DNA of 64,000 bases from Thermococcus litoralis DSM 5473 (lineage in GTDB: Archaea; Methanobacteriota_B; Thermococci; Thermococcales; Thermococcaceae), in contig NC_022084.1 of the NCBI RefSeq assembly GCF_000246985.2, forward strand, positions 1,064,191 through 1,128,190, read 5' to 3'. A model generated the notes under the pieces. The model worked only from the letters and a program-made list of their open reading frames with translations. It was not told the DNA's origin and did not search any database. Made by a program: the position numbers and the translations under genes. Below are positions 56,025 to 61,703 of the stretch, piece after piece (position 1 is the stretch's first letter; every line of letters begins with the position of its first letter).

Positions 56025-56837
56025 TCACTTTGGCATCTCCTTGATATGCACATCCATCTGCGGGAACGGTATCTCTATTCCTTCTTTCATGTAGGCCTTG
56101 TAGATGTCCTTGGTGAGGTCTCCCTTGACCGCCCAGTAGTCCTCGGTCTTAGCCCACGCCCTGAGCTGGAGGTTTATCGACGAGTCTGCGAGCTCCGTTA
56201 TAACCACCGTCGGAGCCGGATCCTTGAGAACCTTCGGGTGGTTCTGCATGAGGTTCATGGCGATCTTAATGGCCTTGTCGAGGTCCGTTCCGTAGGCGAC
56301 GCCGACGTTGACGTCGACTCTCCTCGTGGGCATCCTGGTGTAGTTGGTTATCACGTTGCCCCAGACGAGCTTGTTGGGGATCGTTATGAGCACGTTGTCG
56401 GGAGTTAAGAGCTCGGTGCTCATTATGCCGACGGCGTTGACTTTGCCGGTCTTCCCAGCTACCTCAACGACCTCACCCATGTCAATCGGCCTGAGGGCTG
56501 CAATCCAGACTCCAGCTGCCAGGTTTGTTAGCGTGTCCTGCATGCCGAAGCCCAAAATGAGGCCTATCACAGCCGATAATCCTAACACAATGGATCCCGT
56601 TTCTATTCCTAGAGCTCTTACTGCTAGGAGGATTACCGCAACATACAAAAGAGCACTTAGAAATTTTGCAAGGAATTCAATGATTAGCTCCGGGAGCTTC
56701 GTCTTCTTAAGTGCCATTTTGAAACTCTTTACAGTAACCTTTGTGACAATCCATCCTACAACTAAAACCAAAATCGCGGTTAGAATCTGAATTGATGTTA
56801 CGCCAAGGTACGGAAGCTGTTTTTCAAGTGCTACCAC
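56025..56837 (-). CDS. MscS-family mechanosensitive channel
   Basis: 270 residues. Three N-terminal helices, with the pore helix SIVLGLSAVIGLILGFGMQD, then the beta domain (RPIDMGEVVEVAGKTGKVNA, ITNYTRMPTRRVDVNVGVAY). Opens on membrane tension to release osmolytes. It converges on the osmoprotectant cluster, so uptake and emergency release genes are adjacent. ATG 56837. Confidence 0.92.
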   Translation of the reverse strand: MVALEKQLPYLGVTSIQILTAILVLVVGWIVTKVTVKSFKMALKKTKLPELIIEFLAKFLSALLYVAVILLAVRALGIETGSIVLGLSAVIGLILGFGMQDTLTNLAAGVWIAALRPIDMGEVVEVAGKTGKVNAVGIMSTELLTPDNVLITIPNKLVWGNVITNYTRMPTRRVDVNVGVAYGTDLDKAIKIAMNLMQNHPKVLKDPAPTVVITELADSSINLQLRAWAKTEDYWAVKGDLTKDIYKAYMKEGIEIPFPQMDVHIKEMPK

Positions 56838-56899
56838 TTTGTTTCATCTCCAAAAATTCTTAAAGGAGTTTTTATTAATAGGATAAAGAAAAGAGAAAA

Positions 56900-57349
56900 T
56901 CAAACTTCCCCATATTTTTCAATGAGCTTCTTCAAAAGTCTGTGGTGGTCTTCTTCATTTTTAACAAGGGCCTCAGCGAGCCCTTTGAAGAGCGGATGGG
57001 TCATCTTTTCTGCCATCTTTTTGTATGTTTCTATCATGTCTTTCTCTATCTCAAGGTGCATCTCGGCAAACCTTTTCACAAGAAGAGCCTGTTCTCCGGA
57101 GAGCTCTATCTCCTCTGGTTCTTTCACGTGTTCATATCCCTTTCCAACTTTTTCAAGCTCCTTCTGAGCCTCAAGGATTGCTTTCATTAAGTGTTTGTGT
57201 ATAATTGTATCGACGGCTATTCTTGTCACAACCGCCTCTGTATCGGTGTACTTCAACCCCTGTCCCCTAATCTTTGCCAGTCCTTCGGTATAACTCTTGG
57301 CCGCCTTATCCTCAACTTCGGCAGCCTTTTTAACAAGAGGTTCGACCAT
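56900..57349 (-). CDS. ferritin-like helical protein, third gene of the encapsulin operon
   Basis: 149 residues, all alpha. Possible metal ligands are E (AAEVEDKAAKSY), H (IIHKHLMKAI), the pair in AEMHLEIEKDMIE, and KNEEDHHRLLKKLIEKYG at the C-terminus. This is a rubrerythrin-like layout but with a different spacing from its neighbours. ATG 57349 follows GGTGATTCC; codons further upstream lack a ribosome site. Gene order on the minus strand is encapsulin, 57408-57917, this gene. No obvious cargo-loading peptide. Confidence 0.7.
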   Translation of the reverse strand: MVEPLVKKAAEVEDKAAKSYTEGLAKIRGQGLKYTDTEAVVTRIAVDTIIHKHLMKAILEAQKELEKVGKGYEHVKEPEEIELSGEQALLVKRFAEMHLEIEKDMIETYKKMAEKMTHPLFKGLAEALVKNEEDHHRLLKKLIEKYGEV

Positions 57350-57407
57350 AGGAATCACCAGTTCATAACATGGTATTTGAAAGTTATATACCTTTCCCAT
57401 TATAGCG

Positions 57408-57917
57408 TCAGAGAAGAGCCAGTAACTCCTTTAAAAGTCTTGAATGCTGAAGTAAACTTTCCCTAATTAGTTTGAAAACCACGTCCTCTAAGGGAGATTT
57501 TGGTTTTAATTTTTCAAAAACTTCAAGTTCCGCGTTGTTGACCTCAATCAATCTGAACACTATCTCTTTAACGGTAGCTTTCTTTTCTTTGGGAAGGTTC
57601 TCTGGAAAGGGTTCCGCATAAAAAAGGGCTTTCCTCTCTGCAAGCTCCTCTCTTCCCATTCTGACTGCTGGAACCTTTTCTTTATAACACATTCCGCCGA
57701 GATTGTACACCTCAACGTTCTCCACAACACTGTCGCTCCAAAACTTTCCCAAAACTCTCTCTATTTCCATTTCTGCTTTAGGGAGCTCTTTTAACAATTT
57801 TTCTTGAAGAATAAAATCAGAATAGAGTGATAAAAGTTCCTCTGTTGGTAATTCTTCTAGGAGTCTCTTAAAGTTGTTCTTTAGCTCTTTAATACCTTTT
57901 TGGGCGTTCTTTTCCAT
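57408..57917 (-). CDS. helical protein of unknown function next to encapsulin
   Basis: 169 residues. Helical at both ends (FKRLLEELPTEELLSLYSDF ... SLLQHSRLLKELLALL) with a central region holding GGMCYKEKVPAVRMGREELA. Contains glutamate/histidine-rich helices but no clear diiron set. ATG 57917 has GGAGG 6 bases before; only 29 bases separate it from the encapsulin stop, so it is co-transcribed. I recognise no family; a cargo or assembly role is inference. Confidence 0.6.
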   Translation of the reverse strand: MEKNAQKGIKELKNNFKRLLEELPTEELLSLYSDFILQEKLLKELPKAEMEIERVLGKFWSDSVVENVEVYNLGGMCYKEKVPAVRMGREELAERKALFYAEPFPENLPKEKKATVKEIVFRLIEVNNAELEVFEKLKPKSPLEDVVFKLIRESLLQHSRLLKELLALL

Positions 57918-57946
57918 TAAGTTTCCTCCAAAAAATAAGAAGGGGG

Positions 57947-58987
57947 TCATTCGAGGACTACAATTGCCTCTGGGCTCTTTATCCTTACTGCTAGGGCTTC
58001 ACTTGCTAAAAACGCTACTTCTTCCCCTTCCGGTCCGAGCTCTTTTAGATCTGCATCCTGTCCGATGATAATGTCAAGAACTGCAGGGGTGTTTGCGAAC
58101 ACGATTACTTTGTTTTCGTCAATGCTTGGGGTAACTAGGATACCACCTTTGAATACCCCTTTCAAAACCTCTATGAGCATTCTTCCACCCTTCTCGTGAA
58201 CTCTCAAGAGCTTGGCATATCTCTTTGGATGGATTATTACCCCGAAAGGCCCTGCAGAGGCTTTTGATGCTTCTTGGAGAGCATTCATGAGTTCATCTAA
58301 TGCCTCTTCTGTGTTTTCCCATGGGCCGAGCTTTAATCTTTTTATCCCTTCAGTTGAAAGTATCTCATTTATTATCAGGCTTTCCTCGTCTTTGACAAGC
58401 AGTTCTCCAGCTTTCACCGCTATAGCTGGATCGTAAGTTCCATCGTTAAGCTCTCTCAGTCCAACGTAGAACTTCTTTGTGAGCATTGGGATTGGCCTGT
58501 ACTCCTGTTTAACTACTTTCACGCCATCCTCGAAGCTTATGATATCCACTCTAAATGATTGGCCAGTTATTTTTGTTTTTGGAAGTGAATTAGTTAACGT
58601 TCTTCCCTTTTCAATTGCATCTAGAAGGGCTTCCCTTAAAACCTTGAGATATCCACTTTCTTCCATTTTATTCTCCTCCGGAGAGTTGAGTTCGGTTTTA
58701 ATACCTGTTAATTCCTCAACCTCCTCAAATCCATCCTTAAGTTCACTGCTCTGCTCTGGGTCTAAGCTCAGCAGAAGAGCCATGAACTCTCCCACGTGTG
58801 CCTTTTCCTCCCTTGCAACGTCCAAGAATACCTTTTTGAACCTTTCATCCTCCGTAAATCTTGCCATCTGTTCATACAAGTTTACGGCATCGAGCTCGGC
58901 TATGGTTGCCAGCCTTAGGGCTTCCATAAGCTCTTCCTTAGAATAGGGCTTATCCCTATTTATCAGAGTTGGGTTTATTGCCAGCAC
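57947..58987 (-). CDS. encapsulin shell protein with fused N-terminal ferritin-like domain (PfV type)
   Basis: 346 residues. Residues 1-95 are a ferritin-like domain (E31, E60/E61 and H64 in AELDAVNLYEQM and VAREEKAHVGEF); a charged linker follows; from about 112 the HK97-fold shell reads YLKVLREALLDAIEKGRTLT ... GPFGVIIHPKRYAKLLRVHE ... FANTPAVLDIIIGQDADLKE. This is the design of the P. furiosus virus-like particle (345 residues), a compartment that stores iron inside. Upstream on the minus strand is GAAAGTCGAAC (59006-59016), a possible control element. Confidence 0.95.
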   Translation of the reverse strand: MLAINPTLINRDKPYSKEELMEALRLATIAELDAVNLYEQMARFTEDERFKKVFLDVAREEKAHVGEFMALLLSLDPEQSSELKDGFEEVEELTGIKTELNSPEENKMEESGYLKVLREALLDAIEKGRTLTNSLPKTKITGQSFRVDIISFEDGVKVVKQEYRPIPMLTKKFYVGLRELNDGTYDPAIAVKAGELLVKDEESLIINEILSTEGIKRLKLGPWENTEEALDELMNALQEASKASAGPFGVIIHPKRYAKLLRVHEKGGRMLIEVLKGVFKGGILVTPSIDENKVIVFANTPAVLDIIIGQDADLKELGPEGEEVAFLASEALAVRIKSPEAIVVLE

Positions 58988-59005
58988 TCAAATCACCATT
59001 TTAAT

Positions 59006-59016
59006 GTTCGACTTTC
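59006..59016 (-). promoter_or_regulatory. 11-mer GAAAGTCGAAC before the encapsulin gene
   Basis: Located 19 bases before the start, after the TATA-like TTATTAA. It is identical to 39786-39796 upstream of the 2-oxoacid oxidoreductase. Confidence 0.5.
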
Positions 59017-59065
59017 ACGTTAATAAGGTTTTCCAAAGAAAATAAAAAGGATGTTAATTCAAAAC

Positions 59066-59622
59066 TCACTTCGTTCTCAAAAACTTTGAGACGTAGGGGC
59101 TTTCCCCGGGTTTTCCTCTTCTGAAGTGGCCGCTCGGCTTTCCAGTTAAGAGCTCTTCAAACCATGCTTCATGTTCTATTTCCTCATGCAGAATAGCAAG
59201 TGCGAGGTCATAGGTTCTTGGATCCTTTCCGAGTGTGTAGTTGCATATCTCCGTATAAACCCCAACGGCACACCTTTCAGCTTCAAGAAGAACCTTTAGA
59301 AGGTTTTCGATGGTAGGCTCTTCTGGCAGATAGGCATCTCTACAAGAGGCTAGATCGGCAAATTCTCTAATGTCTCTTGGCAGATCTCCTCCAAGTTCAT
59401 AAATTCTCGGTACAAGGGCTTCAAAATGGTTTCTATCTTCAAGCCTTGCATCTTCAATTATCTCCTTAATGGCTTCTCTTCTAGACCTGTTGCATGGTTT
59501 CTAAGTATGGTGTAGTAGTAATATGTTGTGAACTCTGCTGCAGCCGCTTTAACGAGAAGTTCTAGCAATTTCTCTACATCTATTCCTGCCCTTTCAATTA
59601 ATCTCCTATTGTGTTCCGACAT
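59066..59622 (-). pseudogene. Dps-like (DPSL/thioferritin) protein, one-base frameshift
   Basis: ATG 59622 behind GGTGAAACC opens [20 protein letters not shown] and reaches RNHATGLE; near 59475-59481 a base (C on the plus strand) seems missing, and the next frame continues [20 protein letters not shown] to the stop at 59066-59068. Repaired, it has 185 residues with the cysteines 94 ([10 protein letters not shown]) and 118 ([10 protein letters not shown]) of the DPSL disulfide/bacterioferritin-like site and E-x-x-H in [17 protein letters not shown] consumes peroxide and stores iron. Divergent from a Fur-family gene. Confidence 0.8.
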
Positions 59623-59670
59623 GGGTTTCACCAATTTTAGTATGTATTTTTTCTTAATAAGCTTTTCTAT

Positions 59671-59687
59671 TTAGAAATAATTTCTAA
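59671..59687. promoter_or_regulatory. Fur/PerR-like box between the Dps-like and Fur-family genes
   Basis: TTAGAAAT-A-ATTTCTAA is a perfect 8-1-8 palindrome close in form to the 7-1-7 Fur/PerR box. It lies between two divergent TATA-like boxes (TTATTAAG near 59655 for the Dps-like gene, TATAAAG near 59700 for the regulator), so one bound dimer could control both. Confidence 0.65.
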
Positions 59688-59725
59688 TTAGGAAAGCTTA
59701 TAAAGTGCAGTGCATACTCAAAAAC

Positions 59726-60109
59726 ATGTGGAAAGAAAAAGCGGTTGGAGTGCTAAGGGAAAAGAGATACAAGCTTACCCCCCAGAGACTTAAGTTACTT
59801 GAGGTAATACATGAACTAGGCCCTTCTCACCCTTCCCTCAGCGAAGTTTTCAAGAAGATCAAAGAAGAGTTCCCCACAATGAGCTTCTCTACCTTGTACT
59901 CTAATGTCATGGCTTTAAAAGAACTTGGCCTCATAGAGGTTTTTTCTGTTGAAGGGGAGACTAGGATTGAGATCAACACGGAACCTCATGTGAATTTGAT
60001 TGAAAATGGTGAAATAGTTGATCTTACCGATCCGGAGATTATCGAACTGATTAAGGAAAAGCTAAGAAAAGAAGTAAAGCTTGTTAACGTTCTAATTAAG
60101 GGCAGATGA
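59726..60109 (+). CDS. Fur/PerR-family transcriptional regulator
   Basis: 127 residues. Winged-helix domain YKLTPQRLKLLEVIHELG, HPSLSEVFKKIKEEFP, MSFSTLYSNVMALKELGLIE as in Fur; the dimer domain reads TRIEINTEPHVNLIENGEIV. The usual HHHD/C-x-x-C zinc motifs are missing: histidine is kept at EPHVNL but the cysteines are not, so metal or peroxide sensing must differ from classical Fur. ATG 59726 lies close behind the TATA box. Divergent from the Dps-like gene with a shared palindrome, suggesting it represses both. Confidence 0.85.
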   Translation: MWKEKAVGVLREKRYKLTPQRLKLLEVIHELGPSHPSLSEVFKKIKEEFPTMSFSTLYSNVMALKELGLIEVFSVEGETRIEINTEPHVNLIENGEIVDLTDPEIIELIKEKLRKEVKLVNVLIKGR

Positions 60110-60121
60110 ATCTCTTCCTCT

Positions 60122-60598
60122 TCAATCAACCTCAAGGCTAAAGTCCTGATAATCCATCCATATGCCCGTCTTCATGACCGAGTCGTATTGTGCCTTCAAA
60201 AGCTCATAGTGTGCCTTCTCAACTTTTGCCAATTCGTTAAAGATTTTCTTAACGTTTTCATCCTCGGCTTCTTCCGCCGCTTTTTCATAAAACTCCCACG
60301 TAAGCTTTTCCTGCTCCATCCCCAACTCTACGGCTTTAACCTCGCTAAGCTCTCCCTCATACTTCGGTGTAAGCTTTTCCAAAAGTTCCTCGTCAACCTG
60401 GGGCATTTCTGGTTTTTGAAGGAGCTTTTCTACAAACTTCTTCTCAAAAACATCCCAGTGTTCAGCCTCCTCCCCAGCCAAAAAGAGGAACATCTTTTTT
60501 GCCCTTTCATCCTTTGCTCTCTTGGCCATCTCAATGTAAAACCTGAGCTCTGCCTTTTCAACTTCCAAAGCGAGTGCAAGTGCGTTGATTTCCTTCAT
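60122..60598 (-). CDS. ferritin-like diiron protein (rubrerythrin superfamily)
   Basis: 158 residues. Metal-type residues in ALEVEKAELRFYIEM, LAGEEAEHWDVFEKKF, GMEQEKLTWEFYEKA and LAKVEKAHYELLKAQYD. The end (KTGIWMDYQDFSLEVD) is similar to that of the genes at 48963 and 62720, so these three form a paralogue group. It has its own ribosome site (CGGTGATAGG). Convergent with the Fur-family gene, 12 bases apart. Confidence 0.82.
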   Translation of the reverse strand: MKEINALALALEVEKAELRFYIEMAKRAKDERAKKMFLFLAGEEAEHWDVFEKKFVEKLLQKPEMPQVDEELLEKLTPKYEGELSEVKAVELGMEQEKLTWEFYEKAAEEAEDENVKKIFNELAKVEKAHYELLKAQYDSVMKTGIWMDYQDFSLEVD

Positions 60599-60616
60599 CC
60601 TATCACCGATTTAAAT

Positions 60617-61081
60617 TTAGTTTTCTGGAGATATTAACTTTTTGATCTCTTCAAGCACTTCTTTTGCGTGTCCTTTGGCTCTAACTTTTATCTTCTTCCA
60701 GGCTATTTCTCCCTCTGGGCTAAGGATGAAGGTGCTCCTTATTACCCCTTCGTATTCCTTACCGTAAAGTTTCTTCTTTCCCCAGGCTCCAAGAGCTTTG
60801 TGGAGCTCGCCACTTGGGTCACTGAGAAGCTTTACCTTTAATCCATGCTTCTCTTTGAATTTCCTGTGACTCTCTGGGGAATCCCTGGAAACGCCTATAA
60901 CTTGAACTCCAAGCCTTTCGAATTCTTCAATAAGCTCGGTGAACTCTTTTGCCTCCGTTGTACAGCCAGGAGTGTTGTCCTTGGGATAAAAATACAGCAC
61001 GGTCCACTTTCCTTTCACAAACTCCCTCAAGGGAGCTTCTTTCCCTTCTTCATCCCTAACTTTAATATCAAGGTAGCTCAT
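60617..61081 (-). CDS. bcp: peroxiredoxin, Bcp/PrxQ type
   Basis: 154 residues. Peroxidatic site FYPKDNTPGCTTEAKEFTEL with C near residue 40; no second cysteine four residues later, so 1-Cys-like. IRSTFILSPEGEIAWK is the conserved Bcp C-terminal half. Reduces H2O2 and hydroperoxides. ATG 61081 follows GGTGATCGC. The promoter contains TTAGG-ACAC-CCTAA. Confidence 0.9.
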   Translation of the reverse strand: MSYLDIKVRDEEGKEAPLREFVKGKWTVLYFYPKDNTPGCTTEAKEFTELIEEFERLGVQVIGVSRDSPESHRKFKEKHGLKVKLLSDPSGELHKALGAWGKKKLYGKEYEGVIRSTFILSPEGEIAWKKIKVRAKGHAKEVLEEIKKLISPEN

Positions 61082-61096
61082 GCGATCACCAAAATT

Positions 61097-61123
61097 ATTA
61101 GGACACCCTAATTCATAAACTTT
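61097..61123 (-). promoter_or_regulatory. peroxiredoxin promoter with DtxR-like palindrome
   Basis: ATTAGG-ACAC-CCTAAT, 6-bp arms, at 61097-61112; the minus-strand TATA-like TTTATGAAT lies just upstream (61113-61121). The arms and spacer length match the sites at RuBisCO and ZIP. Confidence 0.65.
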
Positions 61124-61172
61124 TCTCGCAAGGCTTTTTAAGGAGGGCAGAGTAAAATTTCCGGGATATGCC

Positions 61173-61703
61173 ATGAAGATTGTAAAAATTGAAAATCCGC
61201 TCTTCCTCAAGGATGAACTCCTAAGATTTGTCTTCAGAGTCTACCAAGGAACAAATGGAGCTTACCCTGCATTGGAGTGGGTAGAAAATAAACCATCTCC
61301 TGATGATTTTGAAGGATTTAAAAGAGTCTATGAACCTTTTCTTGAGTTCAGGCTTAGGGATGAGTTTGATGAGCTCTATGTTCTTCGCAACGAGGATGGG
61401 AGACTAATAGGTACCGTTGCTCTAGTGTACAATCTTGAGGGCAAAGAAGCATGGTGGGTGCCGGAGGAGATTAAAAACGAAAAAACAGGTCTCATAGAGT
61501 TCTTTATGGTTGACCCAGCCTACAAAGGAAAAGGCTATGGCTCAAAGCTTTTGCAATTTGCAGTTGAAAGGCTTAGGGAGCTCGGAAAAGAAGCATATGT
61601 GATAACCTTTCCGCATCTTGAGGCTTACTCATACTACCTTAAAAAGGGCTTCAAAAAGCTCATGGATTACAAAGAGTTCGTTGTGCTAAAAAAAGAGGGT
61701 TAG
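61173..61703 (+). CDS. GNAT-family N-acetyltransferase
   Basis: 176 residues. The acetyl-CoA loop is FFMVDPAYKGKGYGSKLLQF (R/Q-x-x-G-x-G/A variant KGKGYG), with the preceding strand and LEAYSYYLKKGFKKL as motif B. Substrate unknown. Divergent from the Bcp gene; converges with the b561-like gene and overlaps it by 4 bases. Confidence 0.88.
   Translation: MKIVKIENPLFLKDELLRFVFRVYQGTNGAYPALEWVENKPSPDDFEGFKRVYEPFLEFRLRDEFDELYVLRNEDGRLIGTVALVYNLEGKEAWWVPEEIKNEKTGLIEFFMVDPAYKGKGYGSKLLQFAVERLRELGKEAYVITFPHLEAYSYYLKKGFKKLMDYKEFVVLKKEG

Follow-up and report, generated by a model that had tools for sequence, protein, structure and literature searches.

The EncFtn ferroxidase is near universal in the Thermococcales, most genomes of the order encode it without an encapsulin shell, and the rubrerythrin-family protein encoded beside it in many of these genomes, here termed GENE3, tracks EncFtn and not the shell. 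We reached these results by following up a first-pass annotation of one encapsulin locus in Thermococcus litoralis DSM 5473, located in a window of 64,000 nt (the whole stretch of DNA that was analyzed), and by surveying 94 Thermococcales genomes, of which those with a completeness of 90% or more and a contamination of 5% or less were classed as high quality.

Organization of the encapsulin locus

Three minus-strand genes form the core of the locus: the encapsulin fusion gene, GENE2, and GENE3 (Table 1). Their order, the 29-nt spacing between encapsulin and GENE2, and the sizes of 169 and 149 residues were all borne out as first annotated. A Dps-like gene, a Fur/PerR regulator, an archaeoferritin gene, and a peroxiredoxin gene lie in the neighborhood of the trio. 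The first-pass annotation had also described a PfV-type encapsulin with its cargo fused to the shell, and PDB searches agreed: the whole protein matched the PfV shell 2e0z (E = 8e-165), and residues 2–97 matched 5n5e, the crystal structure of P. furiosus EncFtn (E = 1.2e-45), placing an N-terminal EncFtn domain in frame with the shell. The shell domain belongs to PF04454 (Linocin_M18 family; 64.4 bits against a cut-off of 24.3), and the NCBIfam family-1 equivalog model scored the fusion at 75.1, under its cut-off of 100. This is the only encapsulin gene in the genome, and no relatives of encapsulin were found in viral contigs. By analogy with 2e0z, the fusion protein would be expected to assemble into a T=3 icosahedral shell. 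It has the same domain order as the Family 1 Flp-fusion encapsulin of P. furiosus (PfV, PF1192; 2e0z, 5n5e), which it matches over its full length, and the published PF1192–PF1196 neighborhood contains Fur, Dps-like, and archaeoferritin genes, as is the case here. The two systems differ in that GENE2 is an additional orphan gene here and in that, across the Thermococcales, EncFtn stays whereas the shell is gone from most genomes. Fusion-encapsulin operons that also contain rubrerythrins or further ferritin-like genes have already been published (PMC8346489). The majority of reported fusion encapsulins come from Thermoproteota.

Table 1. Features of the encapsulin locus, in window coordinates
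Feature	Position	Strand	Remarks
Flp-fusion encapsulin, 346 aa, GTG start	57947..58987	-	EncFtn domain and HK97 shell; Pfam and PDB matches
EncFtn ferroxidase domain, residues 1-100 of the fusion	58688..58987	-	E31, E60/E61, and H64 invariant
HK97-type shell part, residues 109-346 of the fusion	57950..58663	-	Missing from most Thermococcales genomes
GENE2, 169 aa, orphan family, ATG start at 57917	57408..57917	-	29 nt past the encapsulin stop
GENE3, 149 aa, rubrerythrin-family four-helix protein, no cysteine	56900..57349	-	ATG start at 57349
TATA-like box AAAACCTTATTAA upstream of encapsulin	59020..59032	-	Position conserved in related genomes; predicted
GGTGAT ahead of the encapsulin start	58992-58997	-	
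GGAGG ribosome-binding site of GENE2	57925..57929	-	No TATA-like box upstream
TATA-like box AAGGTATATAAC of GENE3, within the discarded N-terminal extension	57383..57394	-	
GGTGAT ahead of the GENE3 start	57354-57359	-	
Dps-like (DPSL) gene	59063..59622	-	One-base frameshift near 59480
Palindrome TTAGAAATAATTTCTAA in the spacer separating DPSL from the divergent Fur/PerR gene	59671..59687	.	Resembles a PerR/Fur box
Fur/PerR-family regulator	59705..60109	+	PF01475, 78.4 bits
Archaeoferritin (AFR) homologue	60122..60598	-	Commonest upstream neighbor of EncFtn

We placed the start of GENE3 at 57349 because a longer reading of 166 aa from 57400 is not conserved, a stop interrupting it in other genomes, and because 57349 follows a TATA-like box and a GGTGAT motif that is conserved. 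These two elements stand at a fixed distance before GENE3, and likewise before EncFtn in most of the genomes compared, suggesting that independent transcription of GENE3 is probably possible. A comparison of promoter regions across related loci revealed no TATA-like box upstream of GENE2. The description of the trio as an operon holds only in part, as a promoter-like box precedes GENE3 but not GENE2.

Several side observations concern regulation and the neighboring genes. Palindromes of the same type as TTAGAAATAATTTCTAA, written TTAGAA-N5-TTCTAA, are present at 17 other loci, and in G076 (L051) and G079 (L061) a palindrome, TTTAGTTTGAAAACTAAA, that was not seen in the window copy lies beside the EncFtn TATA-like box. 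The frameshift in the Dps-like gene corresponds to one missing G relative to the intact genes of G075 and G081, which is either a genuine lesion or an artifact of sequencing. In G080 (L057 6256-6591), a deletion of about 700 bp took the divergent promoter region together with the 5′ parts of the Fur/PerR and Dps-like genes.

EncFtn with and without a shell

EncFtn was found as a single-copy gene in 85 of the 94 Thermococcales genomes, including all 74 of high quality, and the shell, searched for with the PF04454 model, in 10. The other 75 EncFtn genomes contain no encapsulin gene and encode a free EncFtn of about 100 aa (93–103 aa in nearly all), which stops where the fused proteins enter the linker ("...GIKVEL", then stop), retains E31, E60/E61, and H64, and has no C-terminal targeting peptide. 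Where flanking sequence could be compared, the free and fused forms share one kind of locus, in which EncFtn stands behind GNAT, archaeoferritin, and often Fur/Dps genes and ahead of GENE3 if the latter is present; the Fur/PerR, Dps-like, archaeoferritin, and peroxiredoxin genes vary in presence between genomes. EncFtn was also present in 12 outgroup genomes of the class, in all of them as the free form, and no encapsulin was found in these genomes; a PF04454 match in outgroup G101 was rejected as a provirus-type capsid amid other phage-like genes.

Free EncFtn proteins are known as s-FLPs and have been described as mainly bacterial (PMC11202242). Like the free Thermococcales proteins, s-FLPs such as Nitrosomonas europaea NE0167 are short EncFtns without a targeting peptide (PMC11202242), but the Thermococcales form is archaeal, is near universal in an order, and alternates at a single locus with a form fused to the shell. 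A limited literature check, covering few subscription journals, found no published account of near-universal free EncFtn in the Thermococcales, of a shell coming and going at one locus, or of GENE2.

In EncFtn trees, which were built on 100 columns only, the ten fused forms clustered with four free forms (G002, G079, G084, and G093) with an SH-aLRT of 99, the cluster spanning five genera, and constraining the fused forms to one clade was rejected (p-AU 0.005). G079 and its shell-bearing tree neighbor G076 align up to the end of EncFtn, and the alignment resumes some 50 nt beyond the shell stop; between these points the shell is absent from G079 except for a 19-nt colinear match to G076. On this footprint, G079 is best read as a genome from which the shell was deleted and in which EncFtn was kept. 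Together, the trees and the G079 footprint indicate loss of the shell with retention of EncFtn. When the outgroup was included, the EncFtn root fell inside the fused group with weak support, the outgroup proteins themselves all being free; either the shell was gained once and then often lost, or it was gained more than once.

Positions 56025–61210 of the window form an identity patchwork when compared with G075, G080, and G081 (57–100% per 100 nt). Identity drops sharply within the shell gene and where GENE3 adjoins MscS, as if by piecewise recombination.

Relatives and distribution of GENE3 and GENE2

The first-pass annotation of the 149-residue protein as ferritin-like was upheld by a near full-length match of GENE3 (residues 7–142) to the Pfam family PF02915, Rubrerythrin, at 27.3 bits where 22.8 are required; 20 of 20 GENE3 homologues matched this family too. 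The protein was predicted to form a four-helix bundle (pLDDT 80), and fold searches gave weak matches to ferritin-like and bacterioferritin structures. Six residues, E13, D47, H51, E102, E132, and H135, are invariant in all 20 aligned proteins, and from the family pattern we infer that they are candidate metal ligands. GENE3 departs from PF02915 rubrerythrins, however, in having no C-terminal rubredoxin domain with an Fe(Cys)4 site, its sequence containing no cysteine at all, and in carrying the helix-B motif D-T-x-x-H in all 20 proteins where the family has ExxH. Archaeoferritin (P. furiosus AFR, PF1196) is also ferritin-like and belongs to the same iron gene cluster, but GENE3 is a distinct protein with a separate position in the locus.

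GENE3 was found in 43 of the 94 genomes, every one of which encodes EncFtn and 33 of which have no shell, and was not found in 21 other genomes of the phylum. In 40 of the 43, it lies on the same strand directly behind EncFtn (or behind GENE2); in two of the remaining cases the genes are on different contigs, and in one (G008) they are 26 kb apart. Since most GENE3 genomes are shell-less and the gene nearly always follows EncFtn directly, GENE3 thus tracks the EncFtn domain and not the shell, and its role is probably that of a ferritin partner rather than shell cargo. The suggestion in the first-pass annotation that it might be cargo or an assembly factor of the shell does not fit the 33 shell-less genomes, in which it occurs behind free EncFtn. 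It is not obligatory for EncFtn, as it is missing from 42 of the 85 EncFtn genomes. It is present in all ten shell-fused genomes versus 33 of the 75 with free EncFtn, a comparison that comprises only 2–4 independent contrasts and leaves room for some tie of GENE3 to the shell. In G024 (L114), the GENE3 reading frame downstream of EncFtn is broken into two that overlap, a possible natural knockout or an assembly error.

The immediate position of GENE3 behind EncFtn is a tighter link than that of the other neighbors and speaks against the alternative, in our view rather unlikely, that membership of one iron/oxidative-stress regulon is all that makes these genes neighbors, EncFtn and GENE3 being partners neither physically nor in any direct functional sense. 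Such a regulon would agree with the separate promoter-like boxes of the two genes, with the distant GENE3 of G008, and with the variable presence at the locus of Fur/PerR, Dps-like, archaeoferritin, and peroxiredoxin genes.

GENE2 was restricted to four of the 94 genomes, all of one genus and all shell-fused, in which it always lies between the shell gene and GENE3, 29–33 nt behind the former; the other six shell-fused genomes lack it. It had no Pfam, NCBIfam, or PDB match, its AlphaFold model was poor (pLDDT 55), and a fold search with it returned no match. Its dN/dS of 0.19–0.26 among the four genomes argues that GENE2 is a real, constrained protein. The best match outside its own family in the 94 genomes was a GENE3 homologue (29% identity, E = 1.9e-4, in one genome), and a GENE3 profile scored the four GENE2 proteins at 11.4–13.6 bits, colinear over two stretches, giving the window protein 12.4 bits against 11.9 for the best of 2000 shuffles; the hhalign probability for the pair was weak (16.7%). 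In the alignment, GENE2 has N127 and L155 at the positions of E102 and E132 in GENE3, such that these presumed iron ligands are not conserved. We consider GENE2 a probable but unproven diverged relative of GENE3 that would lack the presumed iron ligands.

Two other origins for GENE2 were discarded. A phage origin was rejected as a PHROGs search gave nothing above chance and no relative was detected in viral contigs. The low dS of GENE2 (0.13–0.20, against 0.11–0.77 for the fusion gene and 0.26–1.3 for GENE3) had raised the possibility of recent transfer, which was dropped because the whole locus is a patchwork in which archaeoferritin, Fur, and Dps show equally high identity.

Cargo, reductase, and the role of the shell

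GENE2 occurs in shell-fused genomes only and lacks a promoter-like box, which makes it a better candidate than GENE3 for a shell-specific role. Such a role had been proposed for both proteins; for GENE2, which occurs with the fused shell in 4/4 genomes, it may hold, whereas for GENE3, 33/43 shell-less, it fails. The first-pass annotation had seen no known loading peptide, and this was confirmed: the published targeting-peptide consensus L/F-x-V/I-x-x-L/I (PMC11202242) was absent from the last 30 residues of the 4 GENE2 and 20 GENE3 proteins. With no targeting peptide in either, and with GENE3 in shell-less genomes, both were rejected as ordinary peptide-loaded cargo. That GENE2, and perhaps GENE3, might instead be secondary cargo or lumenal partners that contact the fused shell in some other way we judge unlikely: the confinement of GENE2 to shell-fused genomes, its position just behind the shell gene without a promoter-like box, and the presence of GENE3 in all ten of these genomes are what this arrangement would lead one to expect, but so many shell-less genomes carry GENE3, six of the ten shell-fused genomes do without GENE2, and the consensus peptide is missing.

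The first-pass annotation had also named an iron reductase among the possible products of these adjacent genes. An enzyme that mobilizes stored iron would give a storage compartment the exit path that it requires, as EncD does in M. xanthus (PMC11202242). In Pfam and NCBIfam scans, however, neither GENE2 nor GENE3 matched a flavin, rubredoxin, or Fe-S family or an EncD-like flavin-binding reductase family. A reductase is unlikely for GENE3, which has neither a cysteine nor such a family, and nothing speaks in favor of one for GENE2, with its single cysteine and no family; overall, we hold this explanation to be very improbable.

The explanation that we prefer, with slightly more belief than doubt, is an iron/oxygen-stress locus arranged around the EncFtn ferroxidase, with an optional shell, GENE3 as a cytosolic partner, and GENE2 as a diverged relative of GENE3. 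It draws on the observed gene content, conservation, synteny, shell presence or absence, tree changes, peptide absence, and promoter-like boxes; its conditional steps are that the proteins act in the cytosol, the chemistry and pairing assigned to them, and how GENE2 arose. In this scheme, EncFtn would oxidize Fe(II) within the shell in the ten fused genomes; elsewhere it would do so in the cytosol, probably assembled into the decamer usual for EncFtn. GENE3, presumably a di-iron protein, would act beside EncFtn in the cytosol and, judging from its membership of the rubrerythrin family, would most likely use or remove peroxide or oxygen tied to iron oxidation. GENE2 would have arisen in one Thermococcus-like sub-group with the shell fusion, probably as a GENE3 derivative devoid of the iron site; it would be read from the encapsulin transcript, with either GENE3 or the shell as its possible partner. 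More tentatively, we put forward as a possibility that the "encapsulated" ferritin of the Thermococcales is mainly capsule-free and in part a cytosolic EncFtn–GENE3 pair, that the virus-derived shell is an interchangeable add-on that has repeatedly come and gone at one fixed locus, and that GENE2 newly evolved only where the shell is present.

EncFtn is usually seen as a ferroxidase that needs a shell, being unable to store iron alone. An order in which free EncFtn is near universal, its ligand residues are intact, and the shell is mostly absent makes what the shell adds directly testable, natural species pairs such as G076 (with the shell) and G079 (with the shell deleted) being available for this question, and it names GENE3 as a candidate partner of EncFtn.
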